A stretch of 64,000 bases of DNA from Runella sp. SP2. GTDB taxonomy: Bacteria > Bacteroidota > Bacteroidia > Cytophagales > Spirosomataceae. The stretch covers positions 2,480,001-2,544,000 of the forward strand of contig NZ_CP031030.1 of the NCBI RefSeq assembly GCF_003711225.1. Reading direction: 5' to 3'. Below, piece after piece: positions 12,313 through 51,317 of this stretch. A program made the position numbers and the translations under genes. The notes under the pieces were generated by a model that saw nothing but the letters and a program-made list of their open reading frames with translations, did no database searches and was not told the DNA's origin. Within the stretch, counting starts at the first letter, position 1, and every line of letters starts with the position of its first letter.

Positions 12313-14112
12313 TTATACCTCAATCACAGGCACTTCGCCTTCCACAATTAGCTTGCCTTCCGTGACTGATTGAATGTATTCGACCGTAATGCCAGGGGCT
12401 ATTTCGAGCAGTTTGAAGCCTCCCTCGGGCACTACTTCAAAAACCCCGAGTTCGGTCACAATTTTTTTAACGCAGCCAATACCCGTCAGCGGCAACGTAC
12501 AGCTTTTCAACAACTTAGACTCTCCCGCTTTATTGACGTGCTGCATGGCTACAATGATATTTTTAGCCGAGGCTACCAAATCCATTGCACCACCCATGCC
12601 TTTCACCATCTTGCCAGGGATTTTCCAGTTGGCGATGTCCCCGTTTTCGGACACTTCCATCGCACCCAAAATCGTCAAGTCCACGTGCTCACCGCGAATC
12701 ATGGCAAAACTCTCCGCCGAACTGAACAACGACGAACCTGCTTGTATGGTCACAGTTTGTTTGCCTGCGTTGATGAGGTCTGCATCCACATTTTCCTCCG
12801 TTGGGAATGGACCAATGCCGAGCAAACCATTTTCGGATTGAAGTACTACGTTAATGCCTTCGGGGATATAATTGGCGACTAACGTGGGGATTCCAATGCC
12901 TAAATTGACGTAATAGCCATCGCGGAGTTCTTTGGCAATGCGTTTGGCGATGCCGAATTTGTCCAGCCCCCCTGCCCCCAATGGGGGAGTTACTTTAATC
13001 GCAGTTTTCTTTTTTAATATGGTTTCGATATTATTTAATACTTCGCTACGATTCAGGAGAACATCATCATTGGAAAAGCGAACAACTTGAAATCCTTCTT
13101 TTTCCAACCAATCGGTTTGTTCTTTATCAGATACAACGTTATCAGGCATTTGATGAATTAGTCCATCAATTTCGATAATCAAGCCCTCTTTTAAACAAAC
13201 AAAATCTGCAATGTATTGACCAATAATGTGTTGTCTTCGGAATTTATAACTTTCCAATTTTTTCCCGCTTAATGCCTCCCAAAGTACTTCCTCAGCCTTT
13301 GTCGGATTATTTCTCATTCTCTCCGAAAACTCTTTCAATAGTCCATATGTAAAAGGGTCTGCCTTCTGCCAATAAGATGAATCTCTCAACGGCTTTGTTC
13401 CCCCATTGGGGGTTAGGGGGCTGGCGATTGTCCGTTGCTCTATCCGTTTTTCGTAATTTTTTCCTTCAAAAATCCGCTGCACATAAATTCCTGGAACGTG
13501 AATTTCGTTGGGATCAAGTTCGCCCGCAAGAAGGAGTTCTTCCACTTCGGCAATGCAGACTTTTCCCGCTGCCGCCATCATGGGATTGAAGTTGCGAGCG
13601 GTGCCTCTAAAGACCAAATTCCCAGAAGTATCTCCTTTCCAAGCCTTTACAATCGAAAAATCGGCGCGTAGCCACGATTCCAGCAAGTATTTTTTTCCGT
13701 TAAATTCGCGTACTTCTTTGCCCTCAGCAACTTCGGTGCCAACACCTGCGGGGGTAAAAAATGCGGGAATACCCGCTCCTCCCGCCCGTACTCGCTCGGC
13801 CAACGTCCCTTGGGGAATCAGTTCGACTTCCAGCTCACCCGAAAGCAGTTGCCGTTCAAACTCCTTATTTTCACCGACATAGGACGAAATCATCTTTTTG
13901 ACTTGTCGCTGTTGGAGCATCAAGCCAATCCCAAAGGTATCGACTCCCGCGTTGTTGGAAATACAAGTCAATTCTTTCACTCCTTTTTCTACCAAAGCTG
14001 AAATGCAGTTTTCGGGAATACCGCATAGGCCAAATCCTCCGAGCATTAGTATGGCTCCGTCTTTTATATCTGCCACGGCCTCAGCCGCGCCACTTACTAC
14101 TTTATTTATCAT
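12313..14112 (-). CDS. 3-oxoacid CoA-transferase: subunit A - DUF559 nuclease-like domain - subunit B in one frame
   Basis: A 599-residue open frame. Residues 1-230 are a complete ScoA-type subunit A (GGFGLCGIPENCISAL; end YEKRIEQRT). Residues 384-599 are a complete ScoB-type subunit B, with the catalytic Glu in SENGLLGIG near 427. Between them lies residue 231-383: peptide SPLTPNGG from a palindromic element, a DUF559 domain (about 255-368, conserved YIADFVC, IIEIDG and His320, a PD-(D/E)xK-type pattern), and TPPLGAGG from the second element copy. The two subunits are normally separate or directly fused, so the insert is foreign. The enzyme would move CoA from succinyl-CoA to a 3-oxoacid such as 3-oxoadipate. 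It ends a catabolic operon with monooxygenase and acyl-CoA dehydrogenase genes. Whether the long chain folds as a working enzyme is unknown. Confidence 0.93.
   Translation of the reverse strand: MINKVVSGAAEAVADIKDGAILMLGGFGLCGIPENCISALVEKGVKELTCISNNAGVDTFGIGLMLQQRQVKKMISSYVGENKEFERQLLSGELEVELIPQGTLAERVRAGGAGIPAFFTPAGVGTEVAEGKEVREFNGKKYLLESWLRADFSIVKAWKGDTSGNLVFRGTARNFNPMMAAAGKVCIAEVEELLLAGELDPNEIHVPGIYVQRIFEGKNYEKRIEQRTIASPLTPNGGTKPLRDSSYWQKADPFTYGLLKEFSERMRNNPTKAEEVLWEALSGKKLESYKFRRQHIIGQYIADFVCLKEGLIIEIDGLIHQMPDNVVSDKEQTDWLEKEGFQVVRFSNDDVLLNRSEVLNNIETILKKKTAIKVTPPLGAGGLDKFGIAKRIAKELRDGYYVNLGIGIPTLVANYIPEGINVVLQSENGLLGIGPFPTEENVDADLINAGKQTVTIQAGSSLFSSAESFAMIRGEHVDLTILGAMEVSENGDIANWKIPGKMVKGMGGAMDLVASAKNIIVAMQHVNKAGESKLLKSCTLPLTGIGCVKKIVTELGVFEVVPEGGFKLLEIAPGITVEYIQSVTEGKLIVEGEVPVIEV
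12965..13422 (-). mobile_element. 458-bp composite element: DUF559 domain between inverted palindromic repeats
   Basis: The left end (12965-12988) reads AG-C6-TG-C5-AAT-G5-A and the right end (13399-13422) is the inverted form, T-C5-ATT-G5-TTA-G5-CT; 22 of 24 positions agree as terminal inverted repeats. Between them 410 bases code only for the DUF559 domain plus short linkers, in frame with the host gene on both sides. The same 24-nt unit occurs alone at many other places in the window, as expected for end fragments or non-autonomous relatives. No target duplication is obvious. Confidence 0.8.
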
Positions 14113-14146
14113 GTTTTTTCGGTTAATCTGTTTATGAATACATTCG

Positions 14147-14200
14147 GGTCTGACTATCGTCTGACCCTGTTTTAGCTCACGGTCAGACGGTAGTCAGACC
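14147..14200. repeat. Inverted pair of a GTCTGAC repeat
   Basis: GGTCTGACTATCGTCTGACC (14147-14166) and its near-exact inverse at 14181-14200 (one mismatch, 14-base loop) lie between the DUF3237 and CoA-transferase genes. The same 20-mer occurs alone at 63559-63578, so this is a dispersed repeat; as RNA it would form a strong hairpin within the operon. Confidence 0.8.
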
Positions 14201-26706: not shown

Positions 26707-27922
26707 ACGCCTCAAAAGGCAGTCCAACGTAATTCTCGGCAATGGTGGTCGCGTAGGCTTTTGAGATACTGATGTAATCAAACTTCGCCTTTTGTAAGTG
26801 GTACTGAAACGACCCGTGTGCATCTTGTTTGTGAAAAAGCGTGGTCATAAAGTTGGAGAAATCTTGCGCTCTCCAAATTCTTCTCAACGCAATGTCCGAA
26901 TAAGCATCCAATAGTTTCATGGAGTTGTTTTTGTAAAAATCCACAAAGCCATCTACCAAATGTTTTACGTCGGCTACGGCCAAGTTAAGTCCTTTTCCGC
27001 CCGTTGGAGGCACAATGTGTGCTGCATCACCCGCTAAAAACAATCTTCCCGCTTGCATATTATCGGTAAAGAAACTGCGCATTGGCGTAATGCTTTTCTC
27101 AAAAATAGATCCTGATTTCAGCGTCCAGCCCTCCGTTCCCAAACGCAGCGAAAGCTCTTCCCAAATGCGGTCGTCCGACCAGTTATCTACGTGGTCATTG
27201 TTGTCAACCTGAATATACAAACGGCTTACTTTCTCCGAACGAAGGCTGTGTAAGGCAAACCCATTTTGGTGGTAAGCGTAAATCAATTCTTCCGAAGAAG
27301 GAGCCACGTTTGCCAAAATCCCTAACCAACTGAATGGATACGTAATAGAAAACTCATTAAAGGTATTTTTTGGCAACGTTTTGCGACCTACTCCGTGAAA
27401 ACCATCACAAGCCGCCACAAAGTCACATTCAATCACACCCGCTTCTTCTTCGTGCACAAAGTGGATTTTGGGCGACGAAGTGTCGAAGCCTTCAATTTGA
27501 GTGGCAGCGGCTTCAAAATACAATTCTCCTCCGCCCGCCAACCACGCATCGGTCAGGTCTTTTACCACTTCTTGTTGACCATAAATCGTAATGTTTCGTC
27601 CATTGGTATGTTCTCCAAATGGCACCCGAATACGGTTTCCATCAAAACTCAAATACACCCCATGATGCTCTTGTCCTTCCCGAACGAGTCGATCGGCCAA
27701 GCCCAACTGTTTGTAAATATCAACGGTATTTTGTTCCAACAATCCCGCACGAACGCGCGCTTGGACGTACTCACGACTTCGGTTTTCGATAATCACCGAT
27801 TCAATACCGTGTTTACGAAGCCAATGAGCAAGCGTCAAACCCGCAGGCCCAGCGCCAATAATACCGACTTGGGTTTTTGCCCCCCGTCCCCCAATGGGGG
27901 CTTTTTTTGAATGTTTATCCAT
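26666..27922 (-). CDS. pobA: 4-hydroxybenzoate 3-monooxygenase
   Basis: A 418-residue flavoprotein hydroxylase. The Rossmann motif GAGPAG is at 23-28, followed by the family's RAGLLEQNTVDIYKQLGLADRL, the DG motif CDGFHGVGRKTLP and the FAD motif LAGDAAHIVPPTGGKGLNLAVADV. It turns 4-hydroxybenzoate into protocatechuate with NADPH and O2. Relatives start M-KTQVxIIGAGP; here 15 extra residues sit between Met and KTQV, and most (KAPIGGRGA) come from a palindromic element copy. It is the last gene of the pcaH-G-B-L-pobA unit. Confidence 0.96.
   Translation of the reverse strand: MDKHSKKAPIGGRGAKTQVGIIGAGPAGLTLAHWLRKHGIESVIIENRSREYVQARVRAGLLEQNTVDIYKQLGLADRLVREGQEHHGVYLSFDGNRIRVPFGEHTNGRNITIYGQQEVVKDLTDAWLAGGGELYFEAAATQIEGFDTSSPKIHFVHEEEAGVIECDFVAACDGFHGVGRKTLPKNTFNEFSITYPFSWLGILANVAPSSEELIYAYHQNGFALHSLRSEKVSRLYIQVDNNDHVDNWSDDRIWEELSLRLGTEGWTLKSGSIFEKSITPMRSFFTDNMQAGRLFLAGDAAHIVPPTGGKGLNLAVADVKHLVDGFVDFYKNNSMKLLDAYSDIALRRIWRAQDFSNFMTTLFHKQDAHGSFQYHLQKAKFDYISISKAYATTIAENYVGLPFEAFSPLDVQEFYQRH
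27879..27902 (-). repeat. Palindromic element copy at the start of pobA (24 nt)
   Basis: G-C6-GT-C5-AAT-G5-CT, read in frame as APIGGRGA at residues 8-15 of PobA. The TAG triplet that this reading frame would meet in the consensus is absent. Confidence 0.85.
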
Positions 27923-27955
27923 CTTTGGTATATATCAATTTCCTCATTAAAATGC

Positions 27956-29104
27956 TTATGTTCCCCCATTGGGACGGTACGCCGCGCGGGTTAGGGGGCT
28001 ATTGATAACCTCCTCTGCCGTATGAAAAGCTTCATTGGCAGCGGGTAAACCACAGTACAACGCAGCGTGCATAATGACTTCTTTGATTTCAGTCACCGTA
28101 ACGCCGTTGTTGAGCGCCGCTTTTACGTGCATTTTAAACTCCGCTTTTCGGTTGAGGGCTATCAACATCGCCATCGTAATCAGGCTCCGATTATGCTTCG
28201 ACAAGTCGGGGCGAGTCCAAATCTCTCCCCACGCATATCGCGTAATAAAATCCTGAAAATCAGCATTAAAGTCATTGATTTTGGCATTGGCTTTATCGAC
28301 GTGTTCGTTGCCAAGAACGATTCTACGAACAAACATACCACGAGCTCCCCCATCGGGGGCGGGGGGGGCTATAAAAAAATCAATCAATACCTCAGCATAT
28401 TCTTTGGGTAATTCGGTACTTGCTAAGTGGCGCGCATGGAGTACGTGAAGGGTAGCGTTGGGAATATGATTGACCAAAAACTGGGCTTGTTCTACGTTTG
28501 TGACAGGGTCTTCGTCGCCCGTAATGACCAACGTTTCTACCAACAATTGATGAAGTTGTCCCCGAAAATCAGCATCCCGAATGGCTTCGCAGCACTTGGA
28601 ATAACTTTTAATATCACTTCGCAAAAACATCGCTTTGGTTTCGGCAACTCGGGTTGGATTAGCTTCTCTAAAAGCCTCCGTAAACCACCGTTCCATGGTA
28701 TCGTCAACGATGGCCTGCATTCCGTTTTTGGAAATAGTCTCAATTCGTCCATTCCAGCGCTCGTCGTTCCCGATTTTGGCGCCTGTGTTGCTCAAAACTA
28801 TTTTATGAAAACGTTGCGGATGATGAATCCCCAGCCATTGCCCAATCAAACCACCCATCGAAAGCCCGCAATAGTAGGCGCTTTCAATGCCCAATTCATC
28901 CATCAACTGAATGACTTGCTCGCCTAAATCGCCAATTTTTAAGCCCCCATTGGGGGTTTGGGGGCTGTTATATCTTAACACCCGAAAATAGGGCAACAAA
29001 TATGGAACTACTTCGTCCCACATCATCATTTCTGACCCTAGCGAGTTTGAAAATATCAAAACAGGGCTATTGGGCGTGCCTTGCAATTGGTAGTTAGTGT
29101 TCAT
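27956..29104 (-). CDS. pcaL: Fused 3-oxoadipate enol-lactonase / 4-carboxymuconolactone decarboxylase
   Basis: A 382-residue bifunctional protein. Residues 1-244 are the PcaD-type alpha/beta hydrolase, with nucleophile Ser82 in CGLSMGG, an acid in TGDEDPVTN and a His in HARHLAST. Residues 255-365 are PcaC (RRIVLGNEHVDKANAKINDF, TRYAWGEIWTRPDLSKHNRS). The joint (about 245-253, APPAPDGG) is a palindromic element copy; two more copies give residues 47-54 and the last 13 or so residues. The copy at residue 47 stands where PcaD relatives have a D-x-RGHG loop, which is missing here, so the lactonase half may be impaired. The start at 29104 (MNTNYQLQG) is preferred over 29173. Confidence 0.93.
   Translation of the reverse strand: MNTNYQLQGTPNSPVLIFSNSLGSEMMMWDEVVPYLLPYFRVLRYNSPQTPNGGLKIGDLGEQVIQLMDELGIESAYYCGLSMGGLIGQWLGIHHPQRFHKIVLSNTGAKIGNDERWNGRIETISKNGMQAIVDDTMERWFTEAFREANPTRVAETKAMFLRSDIKSYSKCCEAIRDADFRGQLHQLLVETLVITGDEDPVTNVEQAQFLVNHIPNATLHVLHARHLASTELPKEYAEVLIDFFIAPPAPDGGARGMFVRRIVLGNEHVDKANAKINDFNADFQDFITRYAWGEIWTRPDLSKHNRSLITMAMLIALNRKAEFKMHVKAALNNGVTVTEIKEVIMHAALYCGLPAANEAFHTAEEVINSPLTRAAYRPNGGT
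27962..28000 (-). repeat. 39-nt palindromic element (long subtype) at the 3' end of pcaL
   Basis: T-C5-ATT-G3, then ACGGTACGCCGCGC, then G3-TTA-G5-CT. Read as SPLTRAAYRPNGG before the stop codon. The extra 15 nt matches that of the copy at 61043-61081. Confidence 0.85.
28346..28370 (-). repeat. Palindromic element copy at the PcaD/PcaC fusion joint (25 nt)
   Basis: T-C5-ATC-G5-C-G8-CT. It encodes APPAPDGG exactly between the two enzyme domains. The extra base versus 24 nt changes the frame across the joint. Confidence 0.85.
28943..28966 (-). repeat. Palindromic element copy inside the PcaD domain (24 nt)
   Basis: G-C5-ATT-G5-TTT-G5-CT, read as SPQTPNGG at residues 47-54, replacing a normally conserved loop. 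Confidence 0.85.
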
Positions 29105-29150: not shown

Positions 29151-30446
29151 TTACACTTGCCGTAGCACTTCATCTATTAATTCTAAACTCAATCCAATGG
29201 AATTTTCTGGCTTAAAAAGTTCCTCTAAATCAGGCAAATCCAATTGAAAATCAATCAGTACCTCTTTTAAATGTTTCTGCTGATGAATGGCCATTTTACA
29301 CGCCTTTTCTACTAATTCGTGGGCCTGCATTTTGCCCATCTTAGGAGCCAACGCCAAGGACACATTTTCGGCATAAATCAGTCCTTTGGTCACTTCTAAG
29401 TTGGCTAACATTCGTTTTTCATCTACTTCCAAACCGCCCACCAGTTCAATCGCTCGTTCGACCGAACCCGCCGTTAAGGTCATCAATTCTACCAAAACCT
29501 CCCATTCTGAATGCCACAGCCCCGCAGAGCGCTCGTGTTCTTGGGGCATCGCCGAAAGAACCGTCGCTACCAAATGAGGTGTTCGAGTAGCGTTTGCCAA
29601 CAATGCCGCGCAGGTCACGGGGTTTCTTTTATGGGGCATGGTGCTTGAGCCTCCTTTTCCTTCCCCCGCTCCTTCCAAAACTTCCCCGACTTCGGTTTGC
29701 ATGAGGAGGGAAACGTCTTTGGCAATTTTCCCCAAACTTCCTACCAAAATCCCGAGTACACTTGCCCATTCGGACAGCCCCCCAACCCCCGATGGGGGAG
29801 CAATTTCTAACAATTCAGCCATCGTTAGCTGCACCTTCCTATTGATTGAATCATTCCCACTTCCAACTGCTCCTCCAAGTGTCAGGCATAGCACTCGTTT
29901 TTTTGTCTCTGAAATCAATTCTTGACATTGTTTAACCCTTTGAAGCCACCCTGCCGTTTTTAGTCCAAATGTAATCGGACGGGCTTGCTGAAGTAAAGTC
30001 CGTCCAATCATCAAGGTCGAACGGTGTTTTTGAGTTAAAGCTACCAACAGCAGACGTAATTGGCTGAGTTTTGGCTCCAACCACGCCAAAAACGCCTTGA
30101 TTTGGAGCACCATTGCGGTATCAACTACATCCTGACTGGTAGCGCCCAAATGCACCATTTTCGAGGCTTCTACATCGTTGTTTTTGACGATGCGGGTCAG
30201 TTGTTTCACCAATGGTATGGCCGCATTTCCCCCCAACTTTATTTCTGATTTAAGCTTTTCTATGTCAATCAAATACGCGTCGCAACAATCGACAATAATG
30301 GCGGCGGAAGTTTCCGAAACAATCCCATTTTTAGCCTGGGCTTGGGCCAAAGCAGCCTCAAAACGCAGCATCTCAGCGATGGTGTTTCTGTCTGAAAACA
30401 GCCCATTAATTTCGGTCGAGTAGAATATTTCGGAATATAAAGACAT
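29151..30446 (-). CDS. pcaB: 3-carboxy-cis,cis-muconate cycloisomerase
   Basis: A 431-residue member of the fumarase/aspartase superfamily with the signature GSSTMPHKRNP (about 265-275), the GRTLLQQARPITFG region near 150 and an N-terminal region beginning SLYSEIFYSTEI. It converts 3-carboxymuconate to 4-carboxymuconolactone. A palindromic element copy encodes APPSGVGG at about residues 217-224, in the stretch where relatives have a PWHTxRDR-like segment. The start at 30446 is preferred over 30500, which adds an atypical leader. The gene follows pcaG by 59 bases in the same unit. Confidence 0.94.
   Translation of the reverse strand: MSLYSEIFYSTEINGLFSDRNTIAEMLRFEAALAQAQAKNGIVSETSAAIIVDCCDAYLIDIEKLKSEIKLGGNAAIPLVKQLTRIVKNNDVEASKMVHLGATSQDVVDTAMVLQIKAFLAWLEPKLSQLRLLLVALTQKHRSTLMIGRTLLQQARPITFGLKTAGWLQRVKQCQELISETKKRVLCLTLGGAVGSGNDSINRKVQLTMAELLEIAPPSGVGGLSEWASVLGILVGSLGKIAKDVSLLMQTEVGEVLEGAGEGKGGSSTMPHKRNPVTCAALLANATRTPHLVATVLSAMPQEHERSAGLWHSEWEVLVELMTLTAGSVERAIELVGGLEVDEKRMLANLEVTKGLIYAENVSLALAPKMGKMQAHELVEKACKMAIHQQKHLKEVLIDFQLDLPDLEELFKPENSIGLSLELIDEVLRQV
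29776..29799 (-). repeat. Palindromic element copy inside pcaB (24 nt)
   Basis: AG-C6-AA-C5-GAT-G5-A, read in frame as PPSGVGG. Confidence 0.85.
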
Positions 30447-47214: not shown

Positions 47215-48726
47215 TTAAAAATTTTGTAAAATTCGTTTCCACAATTGGTGCTGCTTTTCTACCATGTCAAAAGCATCAAACTCGTCGGTAAATGCCGAGC
47301 CTTCGTATTCTGATGAAATATAGCCTTTGTAACCTCCTTCGTGGAAAACCTTGAAAATGGCAGGGTAATCTATCGAAGGCTCATCGCCGTTTTCGTCGAA
47401 ACCATAGAATTTACCATGCACGTGTACAACATAAGGCATGATTTCTTTCCAATTTTCTACGGGCTGACGGCCATTCATGCTAAATGCCATATTCAGACGG
47501 CCAATTTGTGGCGGCGTAGCCCCCATTGGAACTAATCTTTGGGCCAATTCGCCAAATTTGGCTGGCGTTGGAATGTCTTTATGCCAAATTTCTTTGGTAA
47601 TGGCAATCATCTCGTCGGTGACACCTGCCGTTTTAAAGCTGGTCAATAACGCCTCCGGAATGGCACGCATACAAGTCCCCATATCTGGCACAAAGCCTAA
47701 CACGTGGGTCTGCATTTGTCCAAACATTTCAGCCATTTTAATTACAGAAGGGTGGTCAACGCTGTAAGGCGTATGTAGCTCTATTCCCATCACGACGTTG
47801 GCTTTTTCGGCAAAAGGCACGAGTTTTTGATAGACTTCGGCAGGTGCGGTAGTTTGGCAACGCAGGATAGGAAAGCCGAGTTTTTGAGCCGCCAAAATCT
47901 GAGGTTTGATGTATTCTACGGTTTCATCAATACTCATTTTGGCGTGGCGTTTGATAGCCACATCAATGTTGGCATCTAAAGCCACTGGCTCAAACTCGTA
48001 CTTGTCAAGGAGGTTTTTTACTTCTTTTTCGGTTTGGTCAGAGATGTATGGAAATCCTCTAAGGCTTTGAAAGCCAATTATTTCTAAACCGGTACCTAAG
48101 TCACGTTTACGAGTTTCGGCAATTACGTCTTCCAACGAAAATTGTCCATAGTTCCATTCGTAAGCGTAGGAAAAAAGGGAGGTGGCGAGTTTTATAGCCC
48201 CCCCCGCCCCCGATGGGGGAGTTTTTGCCCCCACCCCCCCGATGGGGGCTTTATTTGCACTATTTTCAGTTTTGGGTTTAAGAGATATATTGCTTTTTTG
48301 TACTGAGTTTTCAATGGACGTATTTATTCCCCCATTGGGGGTTAGGGGGCACTTTACCACCGAACTCGCCAATAAAGGCGTAGCTTGGGGACCAACCAAA
48401 ATGTAAGGAATATGCAAATCGAACTTAAACTCTACTTCATATTCACTTCCTTTTTCCAATGGTTGAGCAACTTCCAAAATACCTCTATCAAGGATAAAGA
48501 GCCATTCTTTGTCTAATTCTGGAAGTTGGTCGTAGGAGTATTCATTGCCATTGGCCTTTATTTTGAATAGGCTTTTTTCGATTTCTTGCCCGTTGAGTTT
48601 TAGGCTAAAATCCATGCAAGAAAGCGGTAATGCACGATACCAATGCGATTGAAATTTGAGTTGAAAGCCGTTGTCGGTGGCTTCTAAGGCATCTTCTCTT
48701 AAAATATATTTGTCTAAAGGACCCAT
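47215..48726 (-). CDS. Fused C-glycoside deglycosidase: beta-type domain plus TIM-barrel alpha-type domain
   Basis: A 503-residue protein. Residues 1-125 are a beta-sandwich resembling DUF6379/CarC-DgpC-type C-glycoside deglycosidase beta subunits (FQLKFQSHWYRALPLSCMDF; VEFKFDLHIPYILVG). Residues about 180-503 are the xylose-isomerase-like alpha subunit (IELHTPYS, GFVPDMGTC, VVHVHGKFYGF, YISSEYEGSAF supply Glu, Asp, His and Glu ligands). The linker (126-178) holds three palindromic element copies. Known C-C-cleaving enzymes are separate alpha and beta chains, so the fusion is unusual. The start at 48726 (MGPLDKY) is preferred to 48807. Function from domain pairing, not proof. Confidence 0.82.
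   Translation of the reverse strand: MGPLDKYILREDALEATDNGFQLKFQSHWYRALPLSCMDFSLKLNGQEIEKSLFKIKANGNEYSYDQLPELDKEWLFILDRGILEVAQPLEKGSEYEVEFKFDLHIPYILVGPQATPLLASSVVKCPLTPNGGINTSIENSVQKSNISLKPKTENSANKAPIGGVGAKTPPSGAGGAIKLATSLFSYAYEWNYGQFSLEDVIAETRKRDLGTGLEIIGFQSLRGFPYISDQTEKEVKNLLDKYEFEPVALDANIDVAIKRHAKMSIDETVEYIKPQILAAQKLGFPILRCQTTAPAEVYQKLVPFAEKANVVMGIELHTPYSVDHPSVIKMAEMFGQMQTHVLGFVPDMGTCMRAIPEALLTSFKTAGVTDEMIAITKEIWHKDIPTPAKFGELAQRLVPMGATPPQIGRLNMAFSMNGRQPVENWKEIMPYVVHVHGKFYGFDENGDEPSIDYPAIFKVFHEGGYKGYISSEYEGSAFTDEFDAFDMVEKQHQLWKRILQNF
48196..48220 (-). repeat. Palindromic element copy 3 of 3 in the deglycosidase linker (25 nt)
   Basis: AG-C8-G-C5-GAT-G5-A, same length variant as the copy at 28346. 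Read as PPSGAGGA just before the TIM barrel. Confidence 0.85.
48227..48250 (-). repeat. Palindromic element copy 2 of 3 in the deglycosidase linker (24 nt)
   Basis: G-C5-A-C7-GAT-G5-CT, read as APIGGVGA, six bases from copy 3 in tandem. Confidence 0.85.
48328..48351 (-). repeat. Palindromic element copy 1 of 3 in the deglycosidase linker (24 nt)
   Basis: T-C5-ATT-G5-TTA-G5-CA, inverted relative to the other two. Read as CPLTPNGG at residues 126-133, right after the beta domain. Confidence 0.85.
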
Positions 48727-51216: not shown

Positions 51217-51241
51217 AGACCCCTAACCCCCGATGGGGGGA
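51217..51241 (-). repeat. Palindromic element copy between deglycosidase genes, beta-proximal (25 nt)
   Basis: AGA-C4-TAA-C5-GAT-G6-A. Intergenic, keeps the TAA. It faces the copy at 51292 across 50 bases. Confidence 0.8.
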
Positions 51242-51291
51242 TTATTTTGAGGCGGTTTTAAGGTTTTACTATTTATTTTATCGCATTAAAG

Positions 51292-51317
51292 TCCCCCATC
51301 GGGGGATTTAGGGGGCT
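51292..51317 (-). repeat. Palindromic element copy at the 3' end of the deglycosidase alpha gene (26 nt)
   Basis: T-C5-ATC-G5-ATTTA-G5-CT. Its TAA is used as the stop codon of the alpha gene, so the last residues (IAP) come from the element. Confidence 0.8.

Follow-up and report, generated by a model that had tools for sequence, protein, structure and literature searches.

The closest described systems to the locus discussed here are the REPs and the enzymes thought to move them. GTAG REPs are thought to be mobilised by RAYTs, intragenic REPs have been described, and CGTC REPs, among them dRS3 (CGTC-1), are present in Bacteroidetes and had no dedicated transposase known to the authors of that source, who list REP families lacking a known mobilising enzyme as an open question (PMC3733652). 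In-frame palindromic DNA in unrelated genes is known as the Rickettsia palindromic elements (RPEs; PMC10969869), and homing endonucleases of the EDxHD type have been described (PMC3943268). DUF559, the nuclease domain considered below, has been found in repeated recombination hotspots (PMC12308824), a DUF559 gene is named in a section on inteins of Thermosynechococcus (PMC9403480), and a DUF559 protein of Caulobacter, VsrA, is required for the DNA damage response in a methyltransferase mutant and has been proposed as a mismatch-repair enzyme (PMC12907096). A search of the open-access literature, with bioRxiv and most subscription papers outside its scope, linked DUF559 neither to palindromic ends nor to in-frame insertion as far as the accessible text goes, in keeping with an earlier note on this DNA that knew of no such element.

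Here, we describe a locus in a 64,000-nt stretch of the Runella sp. SP2 genome (the window) in which a DUF559 domain lies in frame within a CoA-transferase gene. The anatomy of the element, the in-frame habit of its subfamily, the association with palindromes and the polymorphism of its sites are established. On balance, we favour reading it as a REP-bracketed mobile element whose nuclease would drive its own spread and that of nuclease-less derivatives, by cleavage and mobility that we infer, and which would persist in genes as an unspliced domain.

Anatomy of the ScoA-DUF559-ScoB locus and its nuclease

The locus joins ScoA and ScoB in frame via a complete DUF559 domain placed between inverted palindromic arms, and consists of the following features.

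12313..14112, minus strand: fused frame ScoA-DUF559-ScoB, a single ORF of 599 aa
13465..14112, minus strand: ScoA, 3-oxoacid CoA-transferase subunit A (aa 1-216; NCBIfam TIGR02429, E 3.7e-80)
12963..13424, minus strand: entire element, made up of a palindromic end, the DUF559 coding part and an inverted palindromic end, its outer limits set by the arms
13399..13424, plus strand: palindromic end, upstream in the host reading direction (C5-ATT-G5 with an outer G-run)
13015..13335, minus strand: DUF559 (PF04480) nuclease domain (aa 260-366; Pfam E 7.7e-32)
12963..12988, minus strand: palindromic end, downstream in the host reading direction, an inverted copy of the end at 13399..13424
12346..12954, minus strand: ScoB, 3-oxoacid CoA-transferase subunit B (aa 387-589; NCBIfam TIGR02428, E 6.8e-96)

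The domain covers profile positions 4-108 of 109 and scores 109.9 bits against a Pfam gathering cut-off of 20.6, and a genome-wide DUF559 search returned the same bases. The profile matches thus bear out the earlier note, which had read a complete DUF559 in one frame with the two subunits; its inverted palindromic ends are also present, as arms of 26 nt each that are 88% complementary and have 410 nt between them, with the correction that the 24-mers of the two arms are equal at 21/24 positions and not at 22/24. The element measures 462 nt, a length divisible by three. Both GTAG and CGTC are absent from its arms, a Pfam scan of the ORF at 12313-14112 found no intein/Hint domain and no extra DNA-binding domain, and Rfam gave no match at E up to 1 over 12500-14200. 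An AF2 model of the fused 599-aa protein (9 sequences) had a mean pLDDT of 36.3 and supports nothing. Directly upstream of the scoA start, at 14147-14200 of the window, stands a 23-nt inverted repeat (GGTCTGAC../..GTCAGACC), with similar sequence in the related genomes G001 and G004.

The domain alone was modelled by AF2 with a pLDDT of 88.5 (17 sequences), and Foldseek matched the model to 3hrl (5.9e-7), to I-Bth0305I (3r3p, 9.2e-5), to 1vsr (0.042) and to 1cw0 (about 0.04). DUF559 is thus predicted to fold like the homing endonuclease I-Bth0305I and Vsr, with the catalytic residues of the Vsr/EDxHD fold in place, which upholds the Vsr-like nuclease assignment of the earlier note. The D..C / E-x-D-G / H motif is found in 150/157 domain rows (duplicates included), and six of the seven misses are failures of the strict pattern and not of these residues. 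The domain is under purifying selection: among 13 measurable pairs, dN/dS lies between 0.05 and 0.18 in 12 and is 0.35 in the last, which has few changes; the MnmE pairs have saturated dS, and G007 MnmE was left out.

Host genes and flanking palindromes of DUF559

The genome of the window has two DUF559 genes, each within a long frame, the second in a gene that we take, by eye and from known motifs, to be MnmE. The domain is present in 29 of 59 relatives (own genome counted) and in 222 of 395 genomes of the phylum. In the relatives, 20 of the 41 matches with E below 1e-20 lie in open frames of >350 aa (one partly masked), a count that leaves out locus L030 and five other matches weaker than 1e-20; L030 (genome G006), by eye a long helicase-like protein of another kind, was set aside.

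A scan for the close subfamily found 370 DUF559 relatives, and we kept the best 80. All 80 lie in frame within longer ORFs, by the rule that the open frame extends >150 aa on one side, or 120 and 90 aa on the two sides; two of the loci are cut off by the end of a contig, and in L083 only 13 aa of host frame follow the domain. This proportion is uninformative on DUF559 at large because the search patterns favour the close subfamily, and free-standing DUF559 is common elsewhere (39/157 domain rows, duplicates included). Apart from the ScoAB of the window, hosts were presumptively named by eye from known motifs. On this reading, 69 of the best 80 occupy one MetH site before the B12 domain, two a second MetH site and one a third, and the others lie in ScoAB (3), MetRS (2, at different places), TDO (1), HutU (1) and MiaB (1). 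The concentration at one MetH site is compatible with long vertical inheritance too. Some MetH proteins carry two DUF559 domains each (L097, L114, L101/L005). A separate host class is formed by genes that look by eye like restriction-modification genes and hold in-frame DUF559 inserts (L051, L052, L056, L060, L063, L068, L021, L024). Free-standing DUF559 genes also occur between palindromes (L003, L025, L216, L275), and in L025 a 74-nt near-perfect inverted repeat surrounds the gene.

The earlier note had expected DUF559 genes in relatives to be flanked by its 24-mer; the exact 24-mer is not general, and it is palindromes of the same plan that are found, far above control. Among the best 80 of the 370, C4-G4 palindromes within 130 nt bracket the domain in 60, flank it on a single side in 18 and are missing from both sides in 2, against 0/400 on both sides and 13/400 on any side for control windows of the same loci. 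Twenty of the 80 thus have no recognisable palindrome on one or both sides and still keep the domain. In survey loci from other searches (53 of 61 used, 8 being too short; 5 domain sequences common to this survey and the 80 loci), the best inverted-repeat score reached at least 14 in 22/53, compared with 0/152 control windows (Mann-Whitney p 1.1e-14). When right flanks were permuted among the 80, the median was 13.5 vs 11.5, with scores of at least 14 in 40/80 vs 85/239; this control is weak because the ends of the 80 resemble one another, and control windows taken from other parts of the same or related loci were used instead.

Beyond Bacteroidota, in a set of 17 loci made up of the 16 of 45 plasmid-collection records with a match and E. 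coli K-12, inverted repeats scoring at least 14 were moderately above control, at 7/17 vs 4/44 control windows. The seven positives come from S. meliloti, Azospirillum lipoferum, two Deinococcus, Pseudanabaena, Sphingomonas and Novosphingobium, and CCCCTCACCCTAACCCTCTCCCC occurs both in the palindrome of S. meliloti and in the one beside ycjD of E. coli. The ycjD gene has no bracketing inverted pair (inverted-repeat score 8.0), and its stretch is present over at least 80% of its length in 3362/5426 E. coli genomes. As a within-species insertion polymorphism it was rejected: it offers no clean empty site because two strains lacking ycjD have other genes at the place. Located 3' of ycjD in K-12 (L191:2705-2745) is a 41-nt dispersed repeat with the same C-run tag and hairpin plan, which occurs in 5377/5426 genomes at a median of 19 places per genome. 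In a Neisseria DUF559 locus (2124 bases), a dRS3-like site was not found.

Dispersed palindromes and polymorphic sites

The palindromes themselves are dispersed through the genome. A 26-mer search allowing at most 3 mismatches found 8 matches in the window vs 0 in 100 shuffles, and a strict core pattern occurs 70 times in the genome, its reversed-pattern control not at all. Chance and assembly artefact were dropped as sources of the palindrome/DUF559 arrangement because the same arrangement is present in many genomes. The sequence of the palindromes varies between elements and their plan is kept, namely an outer C-run tag, two or three bases and a hairpin: AGCCCCC-TAA-CCCCC.. in the ScoAB element, AACCTCACCC-AA-CCCTCTCC.. 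in the MnmE element of the same genome, whose hairpin core occurs at 7 places, and AACCCCACCCC.. in the UvrA element. More C5/G5 palindromes, some of them close pairs, stand in the window at 27888-28359, 48207-48341 and 51227-51305.

Many of these copies lie within genes. By a bare count, made without a chance control, 43 of the 70 strict palindromes are in frame, spread over 29 ORFs that each have 150 aa or more, and of the 21 of these ORFs that were scanned 20 match a known family. Their hosts include SelD, KdpA, PurH, ValRS, MiaB, IcmF, GcvP, LeuRS, KdsB, PcaDC and PcaB, and the palindrome of MiaB sits, by eye, in the loop that takes the DUF559 insert in L148. Two solo examples lie in the window.

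28943..28968, plus strand: solo in-frame palindrome in PcaDC; G001 and G004 have a different loop of similar size
29774..29799, minus strand: solo in-frame palindrome in PcaB

Where strict palindromes neighbour one another within 150 nt, 12/13 pairs are oriented as the element's two ends are, the arrangement expected of a gene-less derivative. At window positions 28347 and 28943 a palindrome stands in place of a stretch of similar size, and the few sites compared showed neither a clean target-site duplication nor a clean virgin site at high identity. Among the 59 relatives, DUF559 is present in 9/11 genomes with at least six strict palindromes vs 20/48 of the others; G008 (16 strict palindromes) and G022 (6) have no DUF559 match, which counts against a nuclease-driven reading.

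Individual sites exist in several states within the genus. The earlier note had proposed a search for empty sites in the CoA-transferase genes of close relatives, and in the genus this returned occupied, palindrome-pair and remnant versions, the palindrome-free ones being in two other genera. In the ScoAB linker, G000 and G007 have the element, G008 has a palindrome pair that lacks the nuclease, and G001 and G004 have a shorter C/G-rich remnant; the remaining eight genomes of the genus gave no ScoAB match at threshold. In G024 and G026, from other genera, scoA and scoB are fused with neither palindrome nor element, and in L039 they are separate genes. Fixation of the domain-bearing fusion in all relatives, which the earlier note had named as telling against its reading, is thus not seen. 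The joining of scoA and scoB itself probably predates the element, as the fused genes of G024 and G026 lack it.

In the MnmE loop, the element is present in G000, G005, G007 and G009 and palindromes only in G006 and G012; G001, G004 and G008 carry a scar, so that these 'empty' sites are not virgin sites, and the loop is bare in G003, G010, G011 and the five genomes of other genera that were read. The MnmE of G001 and G004 is 98% identical to that of G000 over a 128-aa query, and in G000 a similar palindrome pair stands on each side of the DUF559, the two in direct orientation. For the UvrA loop, read in 13 genomes, the element is found in G001 and G004, a C5/G5 palindrome pair in G005, a plain linker in G002, G003, G006, G007, G009, G010, G011 and G012, and another, AT-rich insert in G000 and G008. 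Permissive loops therefore accept other repeats as well, and shared location alone proves little. AACCCCA, the outer tag of the UvrA element, is also part of the plain linker in several species, a hint in the sequences at target choice. Occupied and empty versions of one site, as used to recognise homing elements, are thus found for MnmE and UvrA within the genus, and for ScoAB against other genera; with the dispersed and often in-frame short palindromes, they lend the mobile-element reading of the earlier note part of its support. The AT-rich in-frame UvrA insert (L246, L247; G000, G008) codes for NN(D/Y)ELRGQN and is similar to NDELRMMND in MetH (L005), and these inserts are perhaps a second family of in-frame short repeats using the same loops.

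Evidence on independent movement comes from a quick tree and from divergence between insert and host. The tree holds 101 of the 157 domain rows over 108 columns, with a random 27 of the 76 MetH site-1 rows and without ten rows (seven duplicates, one contig-edge, one weak, one masked), and many of its forks are open. A 49-row clade (SH-aLRT 95*) unites inserts of MetH, ScoAB, MetRS, HutU, TDO, MiaB, IleRS, LeuRS and UvrA, with the ScoAB inserts (94) nested among those of MetH; the MnmE (96*) and HsdR (99*) inserts are separate from it. Of the 76 MetH loci, 73 sequences were found and 71 used, giving 16 pairs with a host pS of 0.03-0.55. Compared with host windows of the same size, the insert pS was below every window in 6 pairs, above all in 2 and within their range in 8, so that insert and host are decoupled in some pairs and not in others. 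These pairs are not independent, as L080 = L104 is counted twice and three of the six low pairs come from the trio L098, L107 and L116. In an earlier set of 9 chosen pairs the insert lay below all host windows in 5 (ScoAB narrowly), and the UvrA insert had a pS of 0.108 against 0.230 for the lowest host window.

Proposed mechanism, rival explanations and known systems

A palindrome-bracketed, in-frame nuclease in unrelated genes is a good candidate for the engine that spreads palindromes through genes, and the nuclease as engine is the best explanation that we can offer. In the proposed mechanism, the DUF559 nuclease would recognise the palindrome as a duplex, a cruciform or a single-strand hairpin and cut it. 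The element or a short palindrome pair would then be installed by repair that uses an element copy, or when the palindromic arms anneal. Copies in genes would survive only in loops or linkers and only with a total length divisible by three, and the nuclease would end as an unspliced extra domain that borrows the expression of its host gene. Deletion between the arms, or between flanking repeats, would leave short palindrome pairs and scars.

Rather unlikely, in our view, is that the palindromes owe their movement to a different enzyme, for instance a RAYT (Y1 tyrosine transposase), and that DUF559 is a passenger between two REPs, in the manner of a composite element. Such a division of labour would follow the model of the GTAG REPs, thought to be moved by RAYTs (PMC3733652), and Y1_Tnp domains are present in 50/59 relatives. 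Set against this, the genome has 70 strict palindromes and, in a search for the Y1 family, three weak matches (E 2.9e-5 to 0.0042), all without C-run palindromes within about 1.5 kb on each side, and it is DUF559, with its conserved active site and purifying selection, that is the gene repeatedly bracketed. Alternatively, DUF559 might be a useful domain that has been fused to its hosts for a Vsr-like role in repair or defence and inherited with them, palindromes accumulating beside it because both tolerate the same loops. The single MetH site shared by 69 of the best 80 of 370 relatives, the 8 of 16 MetH pairs without insert-host decoupling and the proposal of VsrA as a mismatch-repair enzyme (PMC12907096) all speak for this account; we nevertheless hold it unlikely, given presence and absence between species of one genus at MnmE and UvrA (and an occupied site, pair or remnant at ScoAB), one clade in about ten unrelated hosts, and palindromes on both sides in 60/80 (again the best 80 of 370) vs 0/400, an association too close to be put down to chance co-location.

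DUF559 could also be carried from one dispersed palindrome to another by homologous recombination or gene conversion, with no role for the nuclease, and the direct palindrome pairs around the MnmE domain of G000 are of a kind that ordinary recombination can create or collapse. The stretches shared measure some tens of bases, which is short, and conserved catalytic residues with low dN/dS ask for a function, which makes this account improbable. It is highly improbable that the insert is an intein or intron, removed at the protein or RNA level. It resembles one in being bracketed, in frame and equipped with a homing-type nuclease, and a DUF559 gene is named in a section on the inteins of Thermosynechococcus (PMC9403480), but the Pfam and Rfam scans above gave neither an intein/Hint domain nor an RNA match, and the palindrome-only versions are too short to hold splicing domains.

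In the elements described here a nuclease is physically tied to in-frame palindromes, which are known from Rickettsia (PMC10969869), and genus-level polymorphism makes the engine question testable on the bench. If the preferred reading, that of a REP-bracketed element driven by its own nuclease, is true, a class of DUF559 inserts in enzymes such as MetH, UvrA and tRNA synthetases would be selfish DNA, which would matter for annotation and for ideas on domain gain in proteins. A bolder version, to which we tentatively give close to an even chance, is that the element stands for a new class of selfish DNA of the REP type. Its autonomous form would carry a Vsr-fold nuclease and spread through the cutting of palindromes, leaving short in-frame palindromes in genomes of different phyla, and one subfamily would live obligately as an in-frame unspliced domain of housekeeping enzymes. 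Such an element would then supply the missing engine for a third REP superfamily and a model for the origin of Rickettsia-type in-gene palindromes.

Set beside known systems, the element shares with REPs/REPINs and their RAYTs a nuclease gene between short inverted palindromes, dispersed inverted pairs and some intragenic copies (PMC3733652). Of the features of a REPtron, inverted REPs around a nuclease gene and nuclease-less dimers are present, whereas a Y1 tyrosine transposase and GTAG in the REP are not: the nuclease is a Vsr-fold DUF559 in place of a Y1 HUH transposase, GTAG gives way to C-run tags at the ends, and one subfamily lies in frame within longer ORFs at all of the best 80 of 370 loci. 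CGTC REPs are likewise dispersed inverted palindromes, some intragenic, in Bacteroidetes (PMC3733652), but the arms here are without CGTC and the Neisseria DUF559 locus has no dRS3-like site. MITEs resemble the short inverted-repeat derivatives without a gene, and differ in that no classical transposase parent was found here (Y1 was searched) and no target duplication was seen at the sites compared. RPEs share the palindromic insert in frame in protein genes (PMC10969869), seen here for 43/70 copies in 29 ORFs. They differ in their length of about 150 bp and are not known to have a nuclease, a nuclease-bearing form existing here. With I-Bth0305I and Vsr the element has in common the nuclease fold and the polymorphic occupation of fixed sites, while differing in its palindromic ends, its many host sites and the lack of any intron, intein or extra DNA-binding domain found. 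The DUF559 element thus falls outside introns, inteins and RAYT systems, resembles homing elements in fold and site polymorphism, and in its working comes closest to a REP-RAYT element with a different nuclease.
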